Positions 1,894-49,330 of a stretch of DNA of 64,000 nucleotides are shown piece by piece. Numbering within the stretch: the stretch's first letter is position 1; the number at the start of each line of letters is the position of its first letter. Source of the stretch: Bdellovibrionota bacterium. Its GTDB lineage: Bacteria > Bdellovibrionota > Bdellovibrionia > Bdellovibrionales > JAEYZS01. The stretch spans positions 1-64,000 of the forward strand of contig JAZKEU010000001.1 of the NCBI GenBank assembly GCA_040386775.1, read 5' to 3'. The notes under the pieces were generated by a model, which saw only the letters and a program-made list of their open reading frames with translations, did not search any database and had not been told where the DNA came from. Position numbers and translations under genes: made by a program.

Positions 1894-2469
1894 TCATAAA
1901 CCGAAAGTCATTTGCAGACTGAAAAATAAACCTTGAATGTTAGTATTGTTAGAAGACATCACAGAATATCTCCCTGCGGCCTTGAAGAGTTTGTTGAACA
2001 TTTTGAAATCATATTCTGTTCCAAAGCCTAAACCAGAAATGGAGTAAACTGATTTGGATCCATTTAAGAAAACTTGATCGATGCCAAGCCCTACCTTCAA
2101 AGAGTTCTTTTTATTAGTGCTTTCCATGACGATTGGCGCTCCATCGAGAGATATAATTTTATTAAAGCTACAGCAATCTCCAGTCAATGTGTAATAAAAA
2201 TATCCTCCAAGAGTAGTGAAGCTAGAAGATGTGCTGGCATTTATGGCCGATGTGATAAACATCTCAATACTATACTTATTGACAAAGTAATGAGTAAAAT
2301 CAACGCGGATTGCGCTGCCTGTGATGGATCCACTTTCCAAACTGAACTGCGCATACTCTAAGCCTGCAGATAAATAGTTTCTACTCTCTTTAATTTCAGT
2401 CACAACGTCGACTGCAAATGCCGGCGATGCAAAGAACCATAGCATGAGAGCAATATTAAGCAGCTTCAC
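1894..2469 (-). CDS. Outer-membrane barrel protein, last gene of motor-like operon
   Basis: 191 residues, signal peptide MKLLNIALMLWFFASPAFA, then repeated amphipathic strands (YLSAGLEYAQFSLES, AIRVDFTHYFVNKY, LKVGLGIDQVFL, GLGFGTEYDF) ending FFSLQMTFGL. This is a small OmpW/OmpX-like barrel with one CC pair in an outer loop. The start is a GTG preceded by an AAGGA box inside the end of the upstream gene, so the two overlap by 14 bases and are probably translationally coupled. As the fifth gene behind MotA/MotB-like and FliF/FliG-like genes it may be the outer-membrane partner of that complex. The barrel assignment is from sequence; the role is inferred from context. Confidence 0.68.
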   Translation of the reverse strand: MKLLNIALMLWFFASPAFAVDVVTEIKESRNYLSAGLEYAQFSLESGSITGSAIRVDFTHYFVNKYSIEMFITSAINASTSSSFTTLGGYFYYTLTGDCCSFNKIISLDGAPIVMESTNKKNSLKVGLGIDQVFLNGSKSVYSISGLGFGTEYDFKMFNKLFKAAGRYSVMSSNNTNIQGLFFSLQMTFGL

Positions 2470-3895
2470 TTTTTAATCCTTCATCGACTAGGAGTTGGTA
2501 GACGTCATTGTGGCGATTAGGATTTGATTTTTCTTTATAAACCAATAACAGTTTTAATTTCTTTTCTGGTAAGTGAGCTTCTAATGCTTTTAAAATTTCC
2601 TCTGGCCCAACCCATGCCGCGGCAAGAGATCTTGTGTCGAATTGTGAAAGTACAGATTTGATTTCTTCTGGCGACTTGAGAGCTAACCAGGCCAGAGTCT
2701 TTACGTGTTTGCGTAAATTGTCCGGAACCATTTGCGGGTTATTGAATATTGCAGCTTCATCAGTCAATGACAATTCTCCCCAAGTCGGAGTGGCGCTGAA
2801 GGTTCTTAGAGTGCTCTTGGTTTTTGCAGTGAATTCAGATACAGACGGTTTTGCTTGGATTGCTTTTAATTTTTCATCAAAACCCAGCTTCATGTTCTCT
2901 TTTCTCATCGGACTGATAGCATGCCATAATCCGATGTCTTTTTTTACTGATTCACTAAGATCTTTTTGTGAAATTTGCGCAAGAGAACAAGGTTCCATAT
3001 AATAAGGATGCTCGTGATAGGACATAGGCCTTGCTGCTGTTGTGACAAAGAAAAGAGAGTATTCCTTCAAGAAGGGGAGTTCTGATGTGATCTCTTTCTT
3101 TTGTTCGGTAGAGATGTTTTTCCATAACCAATTCGCATAGCCGTCCTGCTCGGTCCAATAGCAATCTGCAAAAATTTCTTTTAAAGAATTTGTGCTGAGC
3201 GTATCCAATATAGAATCTTGATTCTTTGATGAAGACGGCACAAAATTTTGATTTTGCGGCATCGAAGGAGTAAATGCAGGAGAAGTTCTTGGAGCAGGTG
3301 TGTTTCCACTTCCTTCCGCAAGTGCACCGGCTAAAACTTTGATTTGTTCTTTTAATTCGGATGATCTTTTCTTGCTGAAAGAATTTGATAAATAGAATGT
3401 ACAACCAAACCCTAAAGCAAAGATTGCGAAAATAAGTTTTGCAAATGTCCAAATTGTTTTATCTGCAACTTCAAATAAATCTTTCACTTCAATAGACTTA
3501 GAAAGTTTAACAAGTTTTTGGTCTACTTTGCTAAAATGGATGAATACATTTTTCTTATTCTCCACAGGAACTGCTTTATAAAGCGCATCTTGTGCGCCTG
3601 GTGGGATAGTCTCTAAAGAGCTATAAATATCCACATTGATTTTTTTGATATCATTCAATTGGATTTTTTCTGGAGATATTTTTTCTCCATCCGAAAAATT
3701 TGTACCTGGCAGAGTTCCTTGAAAGCTGTCAAATTCGAGCTTTACGACAATCTTTGCTGAATCATCAAACATCTTGAATGTATTTTGTAATCTCTCTTGG
3801 AGAGTTTGCTCGAGGTTGAGTTGATCCAGTAAATCCGCTCGACTGATCAGTGGGAGCATCAGTAATGATAGTATTAATAATAGTGTCTTTTTCAT
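2456..3895 (-). CDS. FliF/FliG-like membrane protein of a motor-like operon
   Basis: 479 residues. Order: signal peptide (1-20); periplasmic part (about 21-145) with a stretch resembling the FliF/YscJ C-terminal periplasmic region (LEQTLQERLQ..., IVVKLEFD, INVDIY); one transmembrane helix near 150-172 (FAKLIFAIFALGFGCTFYL); a Pro/Ser/Asn linker; and a cytoplasmic domain of about 250 residues. Its end (FDTRSLAAAWVGPEEILKAL, then HLPEKKLKLLL) resembles the FliG middle-domain pattern TLA.AL.G..EE....L.....K....L. The start ATG overlaps the MotB-like stop as ATGA and follows AAGGAGA. I infer a ring or scaffold protein that bridges the stator to the cytoplasm. The family assignment is tentative: the resemblance is by eye and could be convergent. 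Confidence 0.55.
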   Translation of the reverse strand: MKKTLLLILSLLMLPLISRADLLDQLNLEQTLQERLQNTFKMFDDSAKIVVKLEFDSFQGTLPGTNFSDGEKISPEKIQLNDIKKINVDIYSSLETIPPGAQDALYKAVPVENKKNVFIHFSKVDQKLVKLSKSIEVKDLFEVADKTIWTFAKLIFAIFALGFGCTFYLSNSFSKKRSSELKEQIKVLAGALAEGSGNTPAPRTSPAFTPSMPQNQNFVPSSSKNQDSILDTLSTNSLKEIFADCYWTEQDGYANWLWKNISTEQKKEITSELPFLKEYSLFFVTTAARPMSYHEHPYYMEPCSLAQISQKDLSESVKKDIGLWHAISPMRKENMKLGFDEKLKAIQAKPSVSEFTAKTKSTLRTFSATPTWGELSLTDEAAIFNNPQMVPDNLRKHVKTLAWLALKSPEEIKSVLSQFDTRSLAAAWVGPEEILKALEAHLPEKKLKLLLVYKEKSNPNRHNDVYQLLVDEGLKSEAA

Positions 3896-4599
3896 AGTGT
3901 CTCCTTGTGCGGCTCTATCCTGATAGAGAGAGATCTGGAGTTTCTAATATTTGATGAAGCTGCTTGTATAAATAATTTTTTTTCTGAGAACCCTAGATCT
4001 CTTGCTATAATAAGAGCGCTTGATGCTCTTAGGGAAGAGAGCACAAAATTGTCGACCACGATGTTTGTTTTATGTATGTTCATGGGACGGTTGTCCGCGT
4101 GACCTTCAAAGTATAGATTAACACTTTCTGAGAATGGATGAATTTTTTCTAAAATTTCCTTTAAGACTGCAATTTGATCTTTGTACATTTCGTGTTGCCC
4201 AGCTTTGTACATGTTGTCTGCAAAATTGATAATCAAACTTTCATGATCAGTATCTACGCTCACATTGAACTTGTTTAAAGAGTCCGAAAGACTCGAAGGA
4301 AGCCTGTCATCCACTTTGTCATTGATCGCATTGGCTAGGGCACCGCCCGTGCCTTTGGTTTTTCCATCAGCGGTTTGTAAGTCGCTTTTGCCTTTGCTAT
4401 CAAATTGCTTAGCAAGATTAAAGATGATTTTACTTTTAGAAGCAGGATCTGCCGAGTAAAACAAAATAAAGAAGCTCATGAGCGCCATCAAGAAATCGGC
4501 GTAAGAAACGGCCCAAAGGTGAGCGTTCTCGTCCTCATGGAGAGTCGTAGACTCGTCTCGTTCTATTCGCGGTAATCGAATCTTCTTTTTAGCTTGCAC
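3892..4599 (-). CDS. MotB-like stator protein with OmpA peptidoglycan-binding domain
   Basis: Proton-channel stator subunit. After a basic N-terminus comes the single transmembrane helix WAVSYADFLMALMSFFIL, whose Asp (in YADF) corresponds to the proton-binding Asp of MotB. The C-terminal half is an OmpA-like domain (NLYFEGHADNRP, then FVLSSLRASS and the final RSLSIRIEP) that would hold peptidoglycan. I choose GTG at 4599, preceded by AGAGG nine bases upstream; this puts the channel Asp near residue 35, close to its usual place. In-frame ATGs at 4617 and 4638 lack such a site. It overlaps the MotA-like gene by 11 bases and the FliF/FliG-like gene by 4. No flagellar genes are nearby. Confidence 0.85.
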   Translation of the reverse strand: MQAKKKIRLPRIERDESTTLHEDENAHLWAVSYADFLMALMSFFILFYSADPASKSKIIFNLAKQFDSKGKSDLQTADGKTKGTGGALANAINDKVDDRLPSSLSDSLNKFNVSVDTDHESLIINFADNMYKAGQHEMYKDQIAVLKEILEKIHPFSESVNLYFEGHADNRPMNIHKTNIVVDNFVLSSLRASSALIIARDLGFSEKKLFIQAASSNIRNSRSLSIRIEPHKETL

Positions 4600-5293
4600 G
4601 TAATTCGACCTCTTCATTAATGAGTTCTGCCGCTTCATCTTGATTAATCAAAAGTAAAATTTGATAAATACTTTGTAAGTAACGAGTTGAAGCCATGTGC
4701 TTCACTTGCAATCTATCAGAGATAGGCATGATGATCGCGTTGGCGATAATCAAACCAAAGAACGTTGCTGTCATCGCCATCGCAAGTCCTGGACCAATTT
4801 TGTCTTTTGCTCCATCCAAAGCTTGGAAGAGGGTCACAATACCCATCACAGTACCTGCCATTCCGAGAGAGGGTGGGTATTTGGCTAAGTTTTTTAGGGC
4901 TTGAATTGCATCGACTGAGCGTTGCTCAATTTCTTTTTTCTTTTGTGAGATTAAGACTACAAAAAGATCTTGCGCAACACCTTGCGACCAAAGCAATTGC
5001 GCGTAAGACACCAGGTCGTCTTTTGAGGTGAAGGTGGCTTCTTTATTTTTAGTCAACGCTTCGATTTCGCTTTTGGTATCTTGCATTGTCAAAGGCTTGG
5101 CGCCTAGAGTTTTTAATTCATAGAAAAGATTTTTTAAAACAGCTTGTGGGGTAGCGAAGAATAAAATTCCTATGGTACCACCACCAACGATCAAGACAGA
5201 GTGGAGGTTGAAGTAAGTTCCAATAGTGTCTAAACCCATTGAGAATAAAAATACAAAGAATGTTAAGAAAATACCAATTGGTAAACTGCTCAT
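4589..5293 (-). CDS. MotA-like stator protein
   Basis: 234 residues of the MotA/TolQ/ExbB proton-channel superfamily, closer to MotA. Four membrane segments: IGIFLTFFVFLFSMGL, SVLIVGGGTIGILFFA, the SLGMAGTVMGIVTLF segment following the MotA-like sequence YPPSLG, and GLAMAMTATFFGLIIANAI with the LGPALA-type motif (IGPGLAMAM). A cytoplasmic loop of about 100 residues lies between helices 2 and 3. The ATG follows AAAGGCGG and overlaps the upstream TPR gene by 4 bases. With the adjacent MotB-like gene it forms a complete stator pair that probably converts ion flow into movement or force on the neighbouring FliF/FliG-like protein. Confidence 0.88.
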   Translation of the reverse strand: MSSLPIGIFLTFFVFLFSMGLDTIGTYFNLHSVLIVGGGTIGILFFATPQAVLKNLFYELKTLGAKPLTMQDTKSEIEALTKNKEATFTSKDDLVSYAQLLWSQGVAQDLFVVLISQKKKEIEQRSVDAIQALKNLAKYPPSLGMAGTVMGIVTLFQALDGAKDKIGPGLAMAMTATFFGLIIANAIIMPISDRLQVKHMASTRYLQSIYQILLLINQDEAAELINEEVELRAS

Positions 5294-5847
5294 GTGCCGC
5301 CTTTAAGCTTTGATAAAAGCTTTTTTGCATTTTCATTAGTTGGGTTGATCACAAGACCTTCTTGTAAATCATTTATGGCGCTTTGTTTGTCGTTCTTGAG
5401 GTAGTTGATGCTGGCGCTCATAAACAATATGGAGGAATTGTTTTTGTATTTTTGTTTTAGAATGCTGATTGTTTGAGAAGCCTGGTTGTAGTCACGCTTT
5501 TGAATGAATACTTCTGCTCTTCTTAAATTCTCAATGATTTCATCTGTTGATTTTTCAACGTGGGAGTTTATAAGCTCAATTACACCGGTGCTCATACTAG
5601 CTTCAGATATGGTGATTTGGGAATCTGAGCTATGAGCAGAGAAGACCAACATCGGAATGTTTTTCTTAGAAATGATAAAGACATTCTCGCCCTTTTGGAT
5701 CTCGATCTTTTGTCCAGCTTTGAGCATCTCAAAATTTTGTTGATCGTTTTTTTTATATTGTACATCAGTTTCAAAGCTGATTTGTTCAGCCAAGGAAATT
5801 GACATGTACCCAAAAATTAAGATTGTTGAAAAGTATTTTAACATCAT
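5290..5847 (-). CDS. Exported TPR protein, first gene of motor-like operon
   Basis: 185 residues, signal peptide MMLKYFSTILIFGYMSISLA, then a beta-rich stretch (about 25-80). The second half contains two to three TPR-like helical pairs (IENLRRAEVFIQKRDYNQAS; SILFMSASINYLKNDKQSAI; INPTNENAKKLLSKL). It probably works in the periplasm as a protein-interaction scaffold. It heads the operon, overlaps the MotA-like start by 4 bases, and is preceded by a block of repeated TTAAG sequences that may be its control region. No strong ribosome-binding site precedes its two adjacent ATGs. Confidence 0.7.
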   Translation of the reverse strand: MMLKYFSTILIFGYMSISLAEQISFETDVQYKKNDQQNFEMLKAGQKIEIQKGENVFIISKKNIPMLVFSAHSSDSQITISEASMSTGVIELINSHVEKSTDEIIENLRRAEVFIQKRDYNQASQTISILKQKYKNNSSILFMSASINYLKNDKQSAINDLQEGLVINPTNENAKKLLSKLKGGT

Positions 5848-5912: not shown

Positions 5913-5936
5913 ACAAAAGTCGCATGCGACTTTTGT
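5913..5936 (-). terminator. Perfect palindrome after the giant lipoprotein gene
   Basis: A 24-base perfect palindrome with half-site ACAAAAGTCGCA begins immediately after the TAA of the giant gene (minus strand). Folded RNA would give a stem of about ten pairs with a four-base loop, followed on the minus strand by CTCTTTATTAAG, a weak U-rich tail. It is probably an intrinsic terminator separating the giant gene from the motor-like operon downstream on the same strand. Confidence 0.6.
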
Positions 5937-8900
5937 TTAGTTGATGGGGATTGTAACAGTACGATTGTTTCTGCCGTCTTTAATATAGAGATAATTTGTG
6001 TCTCCATAGAGTCCAACTGGATTATCAAATCCACCAAGTTGTTTCGCTGGTCCAGATGATCCGCCTGTACACCATGTAGGAGTGATATTGCCAATACCAG
6101 CGGTATTGCAGGCAGCAGGGGCAATGGCTGTCGGTCCAGATCCCAATCCTGAAATATAACCTTTCCACCCTTGGAATGATCCGTCAGTAGCAGAGATACG
6201 AACAATTCTGTGATTGTAAGAATCAGCTACATATAAATAAGTATTGTTCGCCCAAATTGCTCTTGGAATATTGAACGAGCCATCTTCTGAACCCGCGCCG
6301 GTGGTTAAATTCTGTCCCGCTGTTCCGGAGTTACACCAGCCTTGCAGTGGCTTGTTTGCAGTTTGTCCTACGCAATATCCAGTTAAGCTTAAGTTTGTGA
6401 GAACACCAATTCTACCAATGATACCGGCAGGAGCTCCTGAAGTTTTATTGTATCTAGAAATTCTATGAGTCCCTGTATCAGAAACGAAAATGTATGAGCT
6501 GTTTGCCGCAATACCACTCGCAGAGTTGATGGACCCATATCCGCTTGATCCGCCACCACCAGTTGCCGCAGTTGTACACCAACCTTGAGCTACGTTGCTA
6601 GTGATTGTACAGACAGAGCCTGAAGTGATGTGTCCGATCGCTCCGTCAAAGGCACCTGTTGTCGGATTAACTCTCATCAATCTTGCCGTGTTGTCTGTCA
6701 CGTACAAGTATGGTGAATCATAGTGAACAACTCTTGGAGCATTGAACATTCCGTTTGTTGTGCCGTTAATGGCCGAACCACCAATACACCAAGTTGGAGC
6801 AGGATCGTTGACGTTGGCTCCAGTACAAGAAGCTCCACCATCGGTAGGAACCGTATTGATTTTTCCGATCCAACCTTGATAGAGAGCATCACTGATTCTC
6901 ACGCGATCCACTCTATGGTTCGAATAATTAGCAATATAAATATAAGTGCTATCTGCTGTAACAGAATATGGATTGTTGTAACCATGAATACCAGAGCCGG
7001 CCGAAGTTCTTCCTCCTCCAGTACACCAATCTGGAGTCATACCTGAGGTGAATCCAACGCAACCCGCAGGACCTGTTGGAGCAAAAGTACCAATGATACC
7101 AATATAACCCAACATCTGACCAGTTAAGCGATTGAACTTTTTAATTCTAGCAGAAGCAAAATCGGTCTCAAACATGTGAGTGCTGTTCATGGATACACTG
7201 TTGTATGCAGTGCTAGTTTCTAAGTTTGCATAGTCGTCAATACCAGCACGCGAAGCCAATACACCTGAAGCAATCGTGCGCGACCATTTTGTAGATTGTG
7301 ATGTAGCAGTGCCAATCCATCCCGCAGCTGTACCGTCAGCCAAATCAAAAGATTGAATTCTAAAATTGTTGTAATCAGCCACATAAATTTTAGAACCTGA
7401 AATTGTCATGCCGTAGGGGCTATAGAAGGCACTGTTCGTATTGCCAACTCGACTTGCTTGACCACCTATGCACCATCCCGGCGTGACCCCGCTCACTGGC
7501 GTACTGCTGCAACCGATGTATCCACCTGTAGGTGAGACTGAAACTCTACCAATCCAGCGGAAATTTTGTCCGTCAGAAAGTTGTACGCGCATCAATCTAT
7601 GATAATCATCAGTGATATAAAGATATGTCCCATCCGTAGTTAAGCCGCGGATTGTTCCGAAACCATTTGTTGTATCTCTAGGGTATGTAATGCCATTTGT
7701 TGTCCAATTTGAAGTGTATGTCGAAGCAAGAGTAGCTGGCGATGGTATATTTGTAGGAAGAGTTCTTGTGAGCGCGCTTCCAATGTATCCAGAGAATGCT
7801 CCTGAAGTTAAATCGATCCTTACAACTCTCACGTTACCAGAGTCACCCACATACAAGTATGTTCCGTCGGTTGTAAGACCAATCGCATTTTTAAATCCTT
7901 CATTTGGCGCGGCAACTTCAACGGGATTAGTAGATAAGTTATATCTGTCGGAAGCCTTCGCTGTTCCTGTCGTACCACTCAAGCACCAGCCCGGAGTACT
8001 ATCGTTTGTTGCAGGAATCGGGCTGCACGTTGCGAGTTGTCCTGCCCAGTTCTGTGGAGCTGCGTTTGTAAGACCCACCCAACCTGCGGCTGCACCAGTT
8101 GAGGCTACAAATCTTTGTAAACGTTGGTTCGCATAATCCATCACATACAAATATCCACCGTAGTGAACAATAGATTGTGGGTTATTGAGCATTCCATCAA
8201 GAGTACCAGTTTGTGAGGTTCCACCTACACACCATCCAGGAGCAGCAAGTCCATTCGAAGAAGCACATGGACCCGTTGCTGGAGAAGCTAAGATGCGACC
8301 GATCCAACCTCCATACGCACCAGTATCTTTGTTGAATCTTAAAATTCTATGGGATCCTGCTGTGACATAAATGTATGTTGAATCCACGGTAATGTATTTT
8401 AAACCTGTTACCAGTGCAGCCGTCACAGTGTTACTACGACCACCTTTGCACCACACAGGAGTTAAATCACCAAGGGTTGGGTTTAAGTTATTGCAAGATG
8501 CAGAAGAGTCGTAAGCAGAAATTCCTTCTGTTGAACCTACATGACCAATCCATCCCACAACTTCATTCAATACAACATCATATTTTACTATTCTGTTGTA
8601 AGTTGCCTCAACGGCGTAGATATAATTTCCATCGGCAACAACATCTTGTGGATTGTACAAACCATTCGTGTCATCGGCAACCATTTCATTTCCACTACCA
8701 CTCATAGTGAATTCACCCGCAGAACCAATCCATGAAATTACCGGAACGTTAGTAAGAGTGGTAGATTGAGATGCAATCGTACCGAGTGAAGGAGTCAGAG
8801 TTAAGCTCATTGATTGTGGCAGATAAGATTTATAGTAGAAGCTATTGCTTGTCACACTGATACCAAATGGAAGAGTGACTAATGTTGAAGTGCAAGAAGC

Positions 8901-11900
8901 ATCAGTAAACAGAGTTCCTGTGTGTACAGATCCTGATGATGAGAAACTCATATTGAAAGAAGAAAGTGAAGATGTTGTATTTCCAGCAGCATCTTGCAAT
9001 GTCACAACGTATGGACCATTACAATCGATACTGTTTAGAGGGTTTGCGGGCCCGACAATAGACATTTGATTTGGCGGGCCTTCAGTGACTGTCGCACTCA
9101 CAGTCATTGCAGAAATTGCTGTTCCATTGGTGACAAGAGTAATTGTTTGCGCAGAGCCTTGAGTAGTGCCCGTGTAGGTTGCAGAATAATTGCCACTACC
9201 TAAATTTGAAACGCCACTGATTGTACCGTTACTTACTCCGGCTGTTTTGTTGAACGTTACAGTTAAGCCACTCGTGATGGCGTTATTATTTGCATCACGT
9301 AAATTCATCGTTAAATTTACAGTGGAACCAGATTGAACTGTAGAACTTGAAATTGTAAATGTAGAGTTGGTAGGGTCTACTGATCCTGGAACAACTTGGA
9401 TTGTTCTTGTTAATCCCGCGATCGGAGCTCCATCAGCCAACACGCGCAGAGTTTGCGCTGAACCAGCAGTCGCACCAGTGTATGTATTTGTGAAATTACC
9501 ATTACCAGCATTGTTCATTGTGCCTAGGGTGCCAGTGGATGATCCGCCAATAGTATCAAATAAAATTGCATATTCACTTGTGATAGGGTTGTTATTCACA
9601 TCTCTGATCACAGCGCTGATATTTGCAATGGCGCCAGATGCGAGAGTAGCTGGGGCAACAGTCAGCGAAGAATTTGCGAGGTTCGGTGCACCTACTAAAA
9701 CTTGAACCGTTTGTGTTGTCGCAAAACCAGATCCATTCACTGTGGTTTGCAATGTGTTGGCAGTTCCTGCGGTGATACCGGTGTACGTCGCCGTGTAAAC
9801 ACCATTACCTTGATTTGTAACAGCGCTCAAGTTACCGAAGGATGTACCGCCAACTTTATCAAAGCCCACAACAATTCCTGCGCTGATCGGATTGTTGTTC
9901 GCATCTTTAATAGTTGCAGTCAGTGTAATGTCAGAGCCGGAGATTACTGTCGCAGCTGAAACTGTAAATGTAGACAGTAAATTCGCAGGTGCGCCCGGAG
10001 TTACGGTGATTGTAGTTGTAGGACCTAGGTTACTACCGTCAACAATCACTCCAATTGTTTGCGCGCTTCCAGAGGCAACGCCTTCATAGTTGATTGCGTA
10101 TTGACCATTACCTTGATTGGTCACAGAGCTAAAGATACCTGTGCTTGTGCCCCCAGCCTTTGAGAAGGTAACCAAAATTCCAGAACTGATTGGGTTATTG
10201 TTGGTATCGCGGATTGTTGCTGTCGCGGTAACAGTAGCTCCAGAGACAACTGTTCCAGAAGTTACGGAGATTGCAGATTGTGTTGAAGAAGGAGCGCCAG
10301 GTACAACATTTACAGAAGTCGATGCACCTAGATCAACGCCATTCACGAGAACGGTAAGAGTTTGCGCAGTCCCGGCAACAACACCTGTGTATCTTATATT
10401 GTAAACGCCGTTACCTTGATTCGTTACAGTTCCGAAAGTACCTGTGCTTGTTCCTCCGGTTTTTCCAAAAGTCACTGTGATTCCAGAATCAATAGGATTA
10501 TTGTTTGAGTCTTTAAGAGTTGCAGTAAGAGTCACAAACTGATCAGAAATTACAGTTGGGTTGCTTACAGTTAAATTGGAATTTGCAAGGTAAGCTGCGC
10601 CTGGAACAACAGTGATTGTCACCGTGGGAGCAAGGGTTACACCATCAGCAGCAACAGAGAGAACTTGTGCGGTACCAGAAATTAATCCTGTGTATGTCGT
10701 TGTGTAAGCGCCGTTACCTGCATTTACCACTGCGCTGAATGAACCTGAACTTGTACCGCCCGCTTTATTGAAAGCCACCAAAATTCCTGATGGAACAGGG
10801 TTATTGTTCACATCTTTTAATGTTGCAGTTACGGTTGCTGATGCGCCAGAAGAAATACTAGCTGCGCTAATTGTCAGAGTTGAGTGAGCATTTGAAGGAG
10901 CTCCTGGCAACACTTGAACTGTGGTTGAGGGAGTGAGCGGTGTTCCATCCACAGATACAGAAATTGTTTGCGCAGTCCCTGAGGTAATACCCGTATAAGT
11001 TGTAGTGTAAACACCATTTCCTTGATTTGTAACTGCGCTGAATGACCCAGTAGATGTTCCCCCCGCTTTGTTGAACGTAATTGTTGAACCAGAAACGATA
11101 GGGTTGTTATTACTGTCCTTAATAGTTGCAGTTACAGTTACGGAATTGGCAGAAACCACAGTGCTCGAACTGATATTTATATTAGATAAAGAGTTGCTTG
11201 GACTTCCTGTGATAACGGTGATGTCACTGGTATTATTTAAATAGAAAGTCGTATTTGATGTGACTTCTAATGAAACCGGAGTTCCCACAATCACCGGAGT
11301 GAATGTGAAAGTGTAAGTGCCATCATTGTTATCTATAACTGGGGTGAAGGTTCCGGTGCTTGTCCCGCTTTGAATTTGAGGAGTAACAGAAAGTCCACCC
11401 ACAACTTGCGGTGTATCATTTGAATTGTAGGCTTGTGCAGTAATAGTTTGCGAGCTTCCAGAAGCTACAGTCGCAGTTGCTGGAATCATAGAAAATTTTG
11501 TTAAACTATTTGTCGTGAACGATCTTGATACAACATTTCCGTCTGGATAGCCTAAGGCATCTACAGCTTTTAATCTTAAAGTGTAAGGAGAATTTGGGAC
11601 GAGGCCTGTAAGATTATAGGTACTTGTTGATCCACCAATGATTGAACCCAACAATTCGTATTGTCCTGTAATCGTATTCAACTTATATATCTGATAGCCA
11701 GTGGCAGCAGTGTTGGGAGACCAATTTAAAGTTACACCCAAACCTGTAATATTAGTAAAGGCATCAAGTCCTGCGAATAGAAGTCTTGAGCCGATAGTGA
11801 ATACTTCATCGTATGTTCCGTCAGAGCTGGTACCTCTAATTTTAAATTCATAGTTACCTATGACAGATGTAGAAGGCGTCCATTTTAAAATTCCAGTCGC

Positions 11901-12218
11901 TGTATCAAATGAAATTGCTGAATTGGGTAGTGAAGTGCAGGGTAATGTTTCATCAACGTTATCATCTATTGTTTGGTCATAGTAGCAAGCATAGCTCATG
12001 CCGGTATCATTACCTGGAAGTCCTACTTGGATATTATTTATATCAACAATAACTTCTGTAGTTTGAGCTACTGTCTGGTTTGGAATAGAGGTCAGTACTG
12101 GAGCACTGCTAGAGCCAAACAAATCATCGATCTGTCCTGAGCTAGAGCCACATCCCGTAAATATTAGAGAAAAAATTGCGACTATTAAAATTTTTGATGC
12201 TATGAATATACGTTCCAT
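5937..12218 (-). CDS. Giant lipoprotein: Ig-like repeats plus two NHL-type propellers
   Basis: 2093 residues. A lipoprotein signal with lipobox FTGC (Cys at 22) anchors it in the membrane. Next are a putative-Ig segment (about 38-140) and an FN3-like domain (about 144-237; LNWSPNTAATGYQIYKL). Then come eight Ig-like repeats of about 100 residues (238-1046) with the recurring core DxNNNPI..G and NQGNGVY, resembling invasin-type Big_1 domains. A linker (about 1047-1165) leads to twelve NHL-like blades (about 1165-2093; TYLYVADSYNHRIVR type), enough for two six-bladed propellers. Nine of the twelve blades carry a Cys pair ending in xWC (PGWC, PTWC, QGWC). A surface adhesin or long extracellular reach structure is likely. 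The ATG is only 0-1 bases from its AGGA box, so the exact start is uncertain. Confidence 0.85.
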   Translation of the reverse strand: MERIFIASKILIVAIFSLIFTGCGSSSGQIDDLFGSSSAPVLTSIPNQTVAQTTEVIVDINNIQVGLPGNDTGMSYACYYDQTIDDNVDETLPCTSLPNSAISFDTATGILKWTPSTSVIGNYEFKIRGTSSDGTYDEVFTIGSRLLFAGLDAFTNITGLGVTLNWSPNTAATGYQIYKLNTITGQYELLGSIIGGSTSTYNLTGLVPNSPYTLRLKAVDALGYPDGNVVSRSFTTNSLTKFSMIPATATVASGSSQTITAQAYNSNDTPQVVGGLSVTPQIQSGTSTGTFTPVIDNNDGTYTFTFTPVIVGTPVSLEVTSNTTFYLNNTSDITVITGSPSNSLSNINISSSTVVSANSVTVTATIKDSNNNPIVSGSTITFNKAGGTSTGSFSAVTNQGNGVYTTTYTGITSGTAQTISVSVDGTPLTPSTTVQVLPGAPSNAHSTLTISAASISSGASATVTATLKDVNNNPVPSGILVAFNKAGGTSSGSFSAVVNAGNGAYTTTYTGLISGTAQVLSVAADGVTLAPTVTITVVPGAAYLANSNLTVSNPTVISDQFVTLTATLKDSNNNPIDSGITVTFGKTGGTSTGTFGTVTNQGNGVYNIRYTGVVAGTAQTLTVLVNGVDLGASTSVNVVPGAPSSTQSAISVTSGTVVSGATVTATATIRDTNNNPISSGILVTFSKAGGTSTGIFSSVTNQGNGQYAINYEGVASGSAQTIGVIVDGSNLGPTTTITVTPGAPANLLSTFTVSAATVISGSDITLTATIKDANNNPISAGIVVGFDKVGGTSFGNLSAVTNQGNGVYTATYTGITAGTANTLQTTVNGSGFATTQTVQVLVGAPNLANSSLTVAPATLASGAIANISAVIRDVNNNPITSEYAILFDTIGGSSTGTLGTMNNAGNGNFTNTYTGATAGSAQTLRVLADGAPIAGLTRTIQVVPGSVDPTNSTFTISSSTVQSGSTVNLTMNLRDANNNAITSGLTVTFNKTAGVSNGTISGVSNLGSGNYSATYTGTTQGSAQTITLVTNGTAISAMTVSATVTEGPPNQMSIVGPANPLNSIDCNGPYVVTLQDAAGNTTSSLSSFNMSFSSSGSVHTGTLFTDASCTSTLVTLPFGISVTSNSFYYKSYLPQSMSLTLTPSLGTIASQSTTLTNVPVISWIGSAGEFTMSGSGNEMVADDTNGLYNPQDVVADGNYIYAVEATYNRIVKYDVVLNEVVGWIGHVGSTEGISAYDSSASCNNLNPTLGDLTPVWCKGGRSNTVTAALVTGLKYITVDSTYIYVTAGSHRILRFNKDTGAYGGWIGRILASPATGPCASSNGLAAPGWCVGGTSQTGTLDGMLNNPQSIVHYGGYLYVMDYANQRLQRFVASTGAAAGWVGLTNAAPQNWAGQLATCSPIPATNDSTPGWCLSGTTGTAKASDRYNLSTNPVEVAAPNEGFKNAIGLTTDGTYLYVGDSGNVRVVRIDLTSGAFSGYIGSALTRTLPTNIPSPATLASTYTSNWTTNGITYPRDTTNGFGTIRGLTTDGTYLYITDDYHRLMRVQLSDGQNFRWIGRVSVSPTGGYIGCSSTPVSGVTPGWCIGGQASRVGNTNSAFYSPYGMTISGSKIYVADYNNFRIQSFDLADGTAAGWIGTATSQSTKWSRTIASGVLASRAGIDDYANLETSTAYNSVSMNSTHMFETDFASARIKKFNRLTGQMLGYIGIIGTFAPTGPAGCVGFTSGMTPDWCTGGGRTSAGSGIHGYNNPYSVTADSTYIYIANYSNHRVDRVRISDALYQGWIGKINTVPTDGGASCTGANVNDPAPTWCIGGSAINGTTNGMFNAPRVVHYDSPYLYVTDNTARLMRVNPTTGAFDGAIGHITSGSVCTITSNVAQGWCTTAATGGGGSSGYGSINSASGIAANSSYIFVSDTGTHRISRYNKTSGAPAGIIGRIGVLTNLSLTGYCVGQTANKPLQGWCNSGTAGQNLTTGAGSEDGSFNIPRAIWANNTYLYVADSYNHRIVRISATDGSFQGWKGYISGLGSGPTAIAPAACNTAGIGNITPTWCTGGSSGPAKQLGGFDNPVGLYGDTNYLYIKDGRNNRTVTIPIN
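5940..8726 (-). repeat. Twelve NHL-like blade repeats within the giant gene
   Basis: Twelve units with the pattern NP..V..D..YIYV.D..NHRI.R, separated by insertions that often read GWIG...C...PGWC.GG. The number twelve fits two six-bladed propellers. Blades four, six and twelve lack the Cys pair. Boundaries are approximate. Confidence 0.7.
9081..11507 (-). repeat. Eight tandem Ig-like domain repeats within the giant gene
   Basis: About 300-base units encoding roughly 100-residue domains, each closing with VxPGAP-like residues. Units two to six are most alike, sharing ATIKDSNNNPI- and TNQGNGVYTTTYTG-like cores. Unit one, next to the FN3-like domain, and unit eight are more diverged. This gradient suggests expansion by recombination in the middle. 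Boundaries are estimated from residue counting. Confidence 0.75.
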
Positions 12219-48214: not shown

Positions 48215-49330
48215 TTAGAAGATGTATCTTCTCATGGCTACGCTAGAGATAATTCCTAAACATAAAAATGCAGTTATCATCCCAGATCCACCATAGGATA
48301 GAATTGGAAGGGGAATACCCACAATAGGCAGTATTCCAATCACCATCCCGATATTCACAAACATATGCCAGAATAAGAGGGAGAGACACCCTATAACTAA
48401 TAACGCTCCAAATTTATCCCTGGCTTGGGTTGCGATTTTAATTCCGATCAGAATGAGAATGATAAAAAGAGTAAGGACTGTAAAGCTTCCGATAAATCCA
48501 TGTTCTTCAGAAAGAACACTATAAATAAAGTCCGTGTGACGCTCTGGTAAGAAATCGAGTTGAGACTGTGTTCCTTTTCGAAAACCCTTTCCTAAGAATT
48601 TTCCGCTACCGACAGCAATTTTGGACTGAATGCTGTTGTAACCAGCACCCCTTGGATCACGAGTGGGATCTATAAATGTCAATACGCGATTTTTTTGGTA
48701 TTCTTTGAGGCCAAAATTATAAGCCAATGGTAAAATGAGAATGAATCCAATGATCGCCGAAATTAAAATTCTCTTCTTGATACCCACAAACAAAAGCATA
48801 GAAACGCTTACAGATGCTAGCATCATCGAGGTTCCAAGATCGGGTTGAATTACCGTTAGCATAAAGGGCACTGCTGTTAAAACAATTGGCAGTGCAAGCT
48901 TTCTCATTCCAAGACCCAAAGATGTATTTCTCTCAGCAAGAATTTTTGCAAGCAGAATCACAAGCATAAGCTTCATGGTTTCAGAAGGCTGGTATTTAAA
49001 GAATCCAAAATCAATCCAACGTTGAGCTCCTAAAGCCACGTTACCAAAAAGTTCCACGACGACCAGGAACAGAAGATTTATAACGTAAAGTCCATAAGCA
49101 AGCTTCGTGAGAATTTTGTAATCCAATACCGTCATAACTAGAAAAAGTCCCCAACCAAATAAAATCCAAAAAACTTGCATTGTAAACAGTCTATGTACGC
49201 CAACAGTTTCAGGATCGTGAGTGGCGCTATAAAGATTGATCAACCCGATAATATTCAGTGCAATGATCACGAATACGAGATTGAAATCTATCTTCTTTAG
49301 GAATGTCCGTTCTTCAACTTGAAGTTCCAT
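48215..49330 (-). CDS. rodA: Peptidoglycan glycosyltransferase RodA
   Basis: 371 residues, about ten membrane helices, SEDS family. Markers: LINLYSATHDP at the start, VIQPDLGTSMMLA, and the catalytic-region PERHTDFIYSVLSEEHGFIG, then ILPIVGIPLPILSYGGSGM. It polymerises glycan strands for cell elongation with PBP2. It overlaps the PBP2 stop by one base (TGATG). Together with mreCD it forms the elongasome operon. Confidence 0.95.
   Translation of the reverse strand: MELQVEERTFLKKIDFNLVFVIIALNIIGLINLYSATHDPETVGVHRLFTMQVFWILFGWGLFLVMTVLDYKILTKLAYGLYVINLLFLVVVELFGNVALGAQRWIDFGFFKYQPSETMKLMLVILLAKILAERNTSLGLGMRKLALPIVLTAVPFMLTVIQPDLGTSMMLASVSVSMLLFVGIKKRILISAIIGFILILPLAYNFGLKEYQKNRVLTFIDPTRDPRGAGYNSIQSKIAVGSGKFLGKGFRKGTQSQLDFLPERHTDFIYSVLSEEHGFIGSFTVLTLFIILILIGIKIATQARDKFGALLVIGCLSLLFWHMFVNIGMVIGILPIVGIPLPILSYGGSGMITAFLCLGIISSVAMRRYIF

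Follow-up and report, generated by a model that had tools for sequence, protein, structure and literature searches.

A probable FliF–FliG fusion encoded with its own flagellar-type stator and a giant surface lipoprotein in Bdellovibrionota

What might a MotA/MotB stator drive when its genes lie among those of envelope proteins rather than in a flagellar operon? The question is raised by a locus at the start of contig C1 (JAZKEU010000001.1) of a Bdellovibrionota genome (assembly GCA_040386775.1; 2.86 Mb, 98% complete), and the first 64,000 nucleotides of that contig, hereafter the window, were analysed. Five minus-strand genes at positions 1894–5847 form a block that encodes, in order, a tetratricopeptide repeat (TPR) protein, MotA, MotB, a protein that we call FG, and a small barrel-like protein (Table 1). 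The original prediction, made from the letters of the DNA, had described five open reading frames (ORFs) overlapping by 4, 11, 4, and 14 bases; these were located as claimed, and the overlaps are right for a MotB start at the GTG of position 4599, which has an AGAGG Shine–Dalgarno sequence (alternative starts, ATG at 4617 or 4638). The five block genes within the predicted span were correct, but a sixth member, a lipoprotein gene on the same strand, had been missed. The analyses below indicate that FG is very probably a FliF–FliG fusion provided with its own flagellar-type stator.

Neither Pfam nor NCBIfam names FG, the TPR protein, or the barrel of the window, and a direct sequence search with FG against the PDB gave no match. 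Because direct searches with the window FG failed, three other routes were used, namely a structure model, sister proteins, and a ranking of ORFs. The predicted layout of FG comprises a signal peptide, one periplasmic ring-building domain, one transmembrane (TM) segment, a proline-rich linker, and a FliG-like helical cytoplasmic part, with hydropathy peaks near residues 4–24 and 147–170. An AlphaFold2 model of residues 21–165, built from two sequences other than FliF, showed a helix–strand–insert–strand–helix–strand topology with a predicted local distance difference test (pLDDT) score of ~80 in the core. In a Foldseek search of 350,542 PDB chains with this model, ranks 1, 2, 4, and 5 were occupied by Salmonella FliF RBM3/collar or membrane–supramembrane (MS) ring entries; the top entries were 6sd1, 7d84, and 8ftf (FliF RBM3/collar), with the type III PrgK and EscJ rings next. 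RBM3 and TM2 of FliF are thus both represented, the former by the Foldseek matches of the window FG and both by the comparison of the sister profile with FliF described below, whereas RBM1–RBM2 have no counterpart in the single ~100-residue domain between the signal peptide and the TM segment.

Sister operons, reached through a FliG_C family search, encode longer FGs (FGdiv) than the window family (FGmain). The sister FGs of loci L151, L152, L153, and L155 lie above the Pfam cut-offs for FliG_M and FliG_C, and that of L084 above the cut-off for FliG_C; the FliG N domain exceeds its cut-off in one sister FG. In profile–profile comparisons, FGdiv matched flagellar FliG over 291 columns (E-value, 1.9e-15) and FliF over 238 columns that span RBM3 and TM2 and reach into the FliG-binding helix at the C terminus (E-value, 1.7e-6), with reversed and unrelated control profiles at 0.011 or worse. 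FGmain aligns in register with FGdiv in both the FliG_C part (E-value, 9.4e-7) and the ring and TM part (E-value, 2e-4). While sisters L151–L155 match the N, M, and C domains of FliG, only the C domain is detectable in the window family, the best FliG_C E-value in Pfam among relatives being 0.0011. When 1556 ORFs were ranked with a FliG-plus-sister profile, ten window-family FGs took ranks 17–26 (E-values, 4e-6 to 0.07), directly behind all FliG-domain proteins and before every unrelated ORF. The earlier description of the 479-residue protein as FliF/FliG-like is therefore borne out by a structural match to FliF and a profile chain through the sisters to FliG.

Several points weigh against this assignment. 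By sequence, the window FG family does not match FliF significantly, and its match to FliG is modest (FGmain E-value, 1.1e-3, versus 0.3 for the reversed profile and 7.6e-3 for an unrelated MotB profile). Support for the window FG comes by way of sister proteins, the ranked ORFs, and a structure model built on a shallow alignment, whose best Foldseek E-value is modest (1.2e-3; probability, 1.00). In the alignment, the DDR torque-helix signature of FliG is lost from the window family, and an AlphaFold2 single-sequence model of the C-terminal 115 residues of FG reached a pLDDT of 44. We take FG to be a FliF–FliG fusion, with strong divergence of the FliG part in the window subtype. Loci L153 and L155 contain, adjoining the FG gene, a second protein that is related to the N-terminal, FliF-like half of FG (L153:7299-8534 and L155:6620-7612; E-values, 1e-13 and 1e-11), and these sister systems also have two barrel-like genes. 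On contig C6 of genome G000 (48451-49104; L075:7451-8104), a 217-residue protein consists of only a FliG_C domain (E-value, 1.6e-11) and a coiled-coil tail; similar FliG_C-only proteins of 215–280 residues adjoin real FliG in many genomes of the order.

The window MotA exceeds the Pfam cut-off for MotA_ExbB (E-value, 2e-17) and the window MotB that for MotB_plug (E-value, 3.8e-9), the latter with a weak OmpA match and MotD/MotB as its best NCBIfam model. Of the identities first proposed for the four partners of FG, those of MotA and MotB hold at the level of Pfam, while TPR matches of the window copy are weak and its barrel is not recognized by Pfam. Elsewhere, TPR matches are above the cut-off in L084 and L152, the TPR protein of L156 matches PEGA (E-value, 0.0019), and a barrel relative in L159 matches OMP_b-brl below the cut-off (E-value, 9.5e-5); barrel homologs occur in 23 rows of the locus comparison. 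In the PDB, the window MotA is closer to flagellar MotA/PomA (E-value, 4e-12) than to TolQ (0.0018), and flagellar MotA models fit it better than TolQ/ExbB models. In a tree that includes the other paralogs of the genome (two flagellar MotAB, one TolQ, and four Agl-like), all 24 of 24 rows of block MotAs fall into one group (ultrafast bootstrap, 96; approximate likelihood-ratio test, 59; as clustered in none of 500 shuffles), which a 97/94 split places with the flagellar proteins and apart from the TolQ/ExbB/Agl types. By sequence, then, the block stator is of the flagellar MotAB type, not of the Tol/Exb/Agl type.

This placement bears on the reading of the block as a known Agl–Glt, Tol–Pal, Exb, or Zorya system, which we consider extremely improbable. 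A weak match of the window MotB to ZorB models (E-value, 6.7e-8) and the four Agl-like ExbB/ExbD/ExbD sets carried elsewhere in the genome speak for it; the position in the MotA tree and the better fit of flagellar MotA models contradict it, and a PADLOC scan of the six proteins gave no ZorA, ZorC, or ZorD match. Membership in Agl, Tol, or Zorya was accordingly ruled out by the tree and the scan, and the view that the block is not of the Agl/Tol type stands, as its MotA groups with flagellar MotA. The Agl–Glt machinery of Myxococcus resembles the block as an ion-motor complex that spans the envelope and includes TPR and barrel proteins, but AglRQS is of the TolQR type and has no known FliF/FliG-like protein. 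Likewise, ZorAB of Zorya are MotAB-like proteins outside flagella, whereas the block has a putative rotor protein and envelope partners. On contigs C12, C15, and C8 of G000, a genome that also carries the block, four ExbB-like genes are each followed by two ExbD-like genes in an AglRQS-like layout.

A MotAB ion channel that has degenerated or been repurposed and is combined with a ring scaffold, serving as a sensor or envelope strut and not as a motor, would be consistent with the loss of the FliG torque-helix charges in the window family and with fast divergence (25–30% identity). We regard this as very unlikely, because the ion-carrying Asp of the MotB channel and the MotA core residues Pro140, Thr148, Thr175, Thr177, and Pro190 are conserved in every row that reaches these positions.

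The association of the five genes was then followed through the phylum. The 26 FG copies come from 25 genomes of this single phylum and mostly have the same neighbours; within the order, 16 of 141 genomes carry FG homologs, and a profile search found them in ~30 of 369 genomes of the phylum. The five genes are complete in 19 loci, and most gaps elsewhere coincide with a contig end; in some loci MotAB are inverted and face the opposite way. A scan of genome contigs with MotA yielded only L018, from a metagenome-assembled genome of Bdellovibrionaceae, and tblastn found no FG on plasmids. Distances are correlated among the five proteins (r = 0.56–0.80; matched in 0 of 999 permutations), although neither these permutations nor the shuffles of the MotA tree take account of shared ancestry, which tells against too strong a reading of them. 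The five-gene set is not a chance assembly and is conserved as a unit. The FG tree is out of step with taxonomic families, in that the window copy groups with copies of two other families, the other FG copy of its own family is placed in another part of the tree, and two copies occur in one genome; this pattern suggests either horizontal transfer or an old duplication followed by loss, between which the trees do not discriminate. Weak profile matches in G057, G065, G069, and G072 were set aside as long membrane proteins, chemoreceptor-like by eye and far from MotAB, TPR, and barrel genes.

The sixth member, the giant surface lipoprotein, is the most informative neighbour for the function of the block. 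Of 25 evaluable loci, about 22 have its gene, or a contig-end fragment of it, next to the block. In other loci the repeats of the giants are laminin-G-like, GLUG, or HYDIN-like; most giants share an fn3 domain near residues 160–235 and a short motif following the lipid cysteine (for example, CGSSSGQIDDLFG, CSSSGDSIDKLFG, and CSDGSGVDKLFN). The motif pattern fits ten giants and none of 106 other lipoprotein-like ORFs, a count to be discounted in part because the pattern was written after the giants had been inspected. A moved object or cargo would be expected to look like this, namely a surface adhesin whose docking end is conserved.

The same constancy of the giant as a neighbour would also suit an energized secretion or surface-assembly machine, similar to TonB/Tol or the type IX secretion system (T9SS), in which ion flow through MotAB and FG drives the export, folding, or flipping of the giant via the barrel and TPR proteins. 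An extra lipoprotein of 460–500 residues encoded between the giant and TPR genes in three loci (L037:4911-6308, L038:11912-13420, and L040:3031-4407) could be a folding factor, since the one tested, that of L037, has a Thioredoxin_4 domain. We nevertheless consider such a machine unlikely: MotAB is of the flagellar and not the Tol/Exb type, the barrel is small for a conduit (about 190–230 residues), and the block has no TonB-like or POTRA protein. The extra lipoproteins carry a GFGLEDSPIRF-like stretch after the cysteine; their assignment as PpiC chaperones was dropped when the L037 copy proved to have Thioredoxin_4.

How far the block stands apart from the flagellum was judged from its surroundings. 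The host genome has an ordinary flagellum on other contigs (FliF/FliG on C3, MotAB on C10 and C16), and genes for export gate, rod, hook, and filament are absent from the block and its flanks at the window locus. The prediction that no other flagellar gene is present thus applies to the window locus but not as a general rule, because two relatives in different families have flagellin genes beside the block (L159:2602-5838 and L163:10968-12949), which may point to a link with the flagellum or to a common site of insertion. These flagellins count against a strictly non-flagellar role, as does the presence of FliG in all FG-bearing genomes of the order, and both would fit an accessory to the polar flagellum, that is, an extra rotor and stator around it or driving it. 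FG was found in 0 of 17 FliG-less genomes of the order, which is unremarkable because only 16 of 141 carry FG overall. We judge an accessory role distinctly improbable, given that most flagellated relatives have no block, that flagellar neighbours are missing at most loci, and that the block's constant companion is a surface adhesin instead of a protein of the rod, hook, or rings.

We hold it moderately probable that the block encodes a FliF–FliG fusion rotor with dedicated MotAB and a periplasmic coupling to the barrel and giant adhesin, which it would move or present. The sequences establish the homology of the parts, the topology read from hydropathy, the co-inheritance of the genes, the conserved ion-carrying Asp, and the constant giant partner; ring formation, rotation, coupling, and function are extrapolated. 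In FG, the last part of FliF (the RBM3 ring domain and TM2) would be naturally fused to a diverged FliG, and by homology the protein should form an inner-membrane ring whose periplasmic side is an RBM3 ring and whose cytoplasmic side is a FliG-like track. By analogy with the flagellar motor, MotA5B2 units anchored to peptidoglycan by MotB would push this track by ion flow. The output is presumably not a filament, because the operon lacks RBM1/RBM2 and any export gate, rod, or hook; motion would therefore have to leave through the periplasm, from the FG ring and TPR protein to the small barrel and on to the giant lipoprotein, as the gene content suggests. A likely task is to move, turn, or present the giant adhesin at the cell surface, in gliding or in attachment to prey or surfaces.

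In comparison with the flagellar rotor–stator core (FliF, FliG, MotA, and MotB), the block has RBM3, TM2, a FliG-type cytoplasmic part, and flagellar-clade MotAB with the conserved Asp in common, but has FliF and FliG apparently fused, and its operon encodes a barrel, a TPR protein, and a giant lipoprotein in place of RBM1/RBM2, FliM/FliN, export gate, rod, hook, and filament. As a precedent, the FliF–FliG fusion of Chlamydiaceae (Bergeron 2016, PMC4768692) comes closest; it is a natural single polypeptide outside a flagellum, which has no SpoIIIAG-like (RBM3) domain and only FliG M, whereas FG keeps RBM3 and has FliG_C; it has been linked to the injectisome, and no MotAB is named in that paper. 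Engineered FliF–FliG fusions assemble rings (PMC11481574, PMC6079021) and support rotation in working motors (PMC4768692). The gliding/T9SS motor of Bacteroidota (GldLM and SprB), a 5:2 inner-membrane ion motor acting on a giant surface adhesin, resembles the block by hypothesis, but GldLM is not FliF/FliG based and the block has no identified secretion channel; Gld families did not turn up in the Pfam and NCBIfam scans of window proteins, no search having been aimed at GldLM/SprA.

Searches of published open-access papers found no FliF/FliG-like system with MotA and envelope lipoproteins. The proposal of an uncharacterized ion-driven, non-flagellar MotAB machine with a FliF/FliG-like partner is supported as to its parts, by homology, while its rotation and output we infer. 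It is possible, and we put it tentatively, that the block represents a new trans-envelope rotary machine, with several subtypes across Bdellovibrionota, in which a self-sufficient flagellar rotor–stator core drives a giant adhesin instead of a filament. A 2025 survey (PMC12505986) placed flagellar-type MotAB in a single flagellar clade, with only Tol/Exb/Agl-like motors and Zorya described as non-flagellar; in contrast, the flagellar-type stators here are accompanied by what appears to be their own fused rotor, with no flagellum in the locus. This suggests that a module of rotor and stator can persist where the export apparatus is missing, a point relevant to the assembly or dismantling of the flagellum in evolution. 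The gliding machinery of the phylum has been termed unidentified and a major open challenge (PMC13104615), and the block offers a concrete candidate motor and adhesin, a candidacy limited by the finding that most searched genomes of the order's largest genus have no block.

Table 1. Features of the block and its giant partner, in positions of the window
Feature	Position (strand)	Size or residues	Description and evidence
TPR protein	5290..5847 (-)		exported; lipoprotein in many relatives; N-terminus weakly PEGA-like
MotA-type stator subunit	4589..5293 (-)	234 aa	PDB ranking and tree
MotB-type stator subunit	3892..4599 (-)		Asp in WAVSYADFLM; OmpA-like peptidoglycan-binding domain
FG, FliF–FliG fusion-like putative rotor protein	2456..3895 (-)	479 aa	alignment, Foldseek, profile comparisons, and hydropathy
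FliF RBM3-like ring-building domain of FG	3521..3832 (-)	~22-125	alpha-beta-(insert)-beta-alpha-beta; model and Foldseek
TM segment of FG	3380..3460 (-)	~146-172	hydropathy; equivalent of FliF TM2 in sister-profile alignment
FliG C-domain-like region of FG	2498..2776 (-)	~374-466	conserved W403, LA424-425, W428, GPEE, and KK445-446
Small outer-membrane barrel-like protein	1894..2469 (-)	191 aa	signal peptide and beta pattern by eye
Giant surface lipoprotein	5937..12218 (-)	2093 aa	lipobox GCGSSSGQIDDLFG, fn3, ~8 Invasin_D3/Big_1 repeats, and NHL repeats; Pfam
Terminator-like hairpin	5913..5936 (-)		between giant lipoprotein and TPR genes; pattern scan, weak evidence

Adjoining the block on its other side, two exported proteins (821-1849 on the plus strand and 238-897 on the minus strand) are barrel-like by eye, have no Pfam match, and are not conserved with the block. 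The terminator-like hairpin ahead of the TPR gene may mean that the giant gene and the TPR gene are transcribed separately, or that attenuation takes place.

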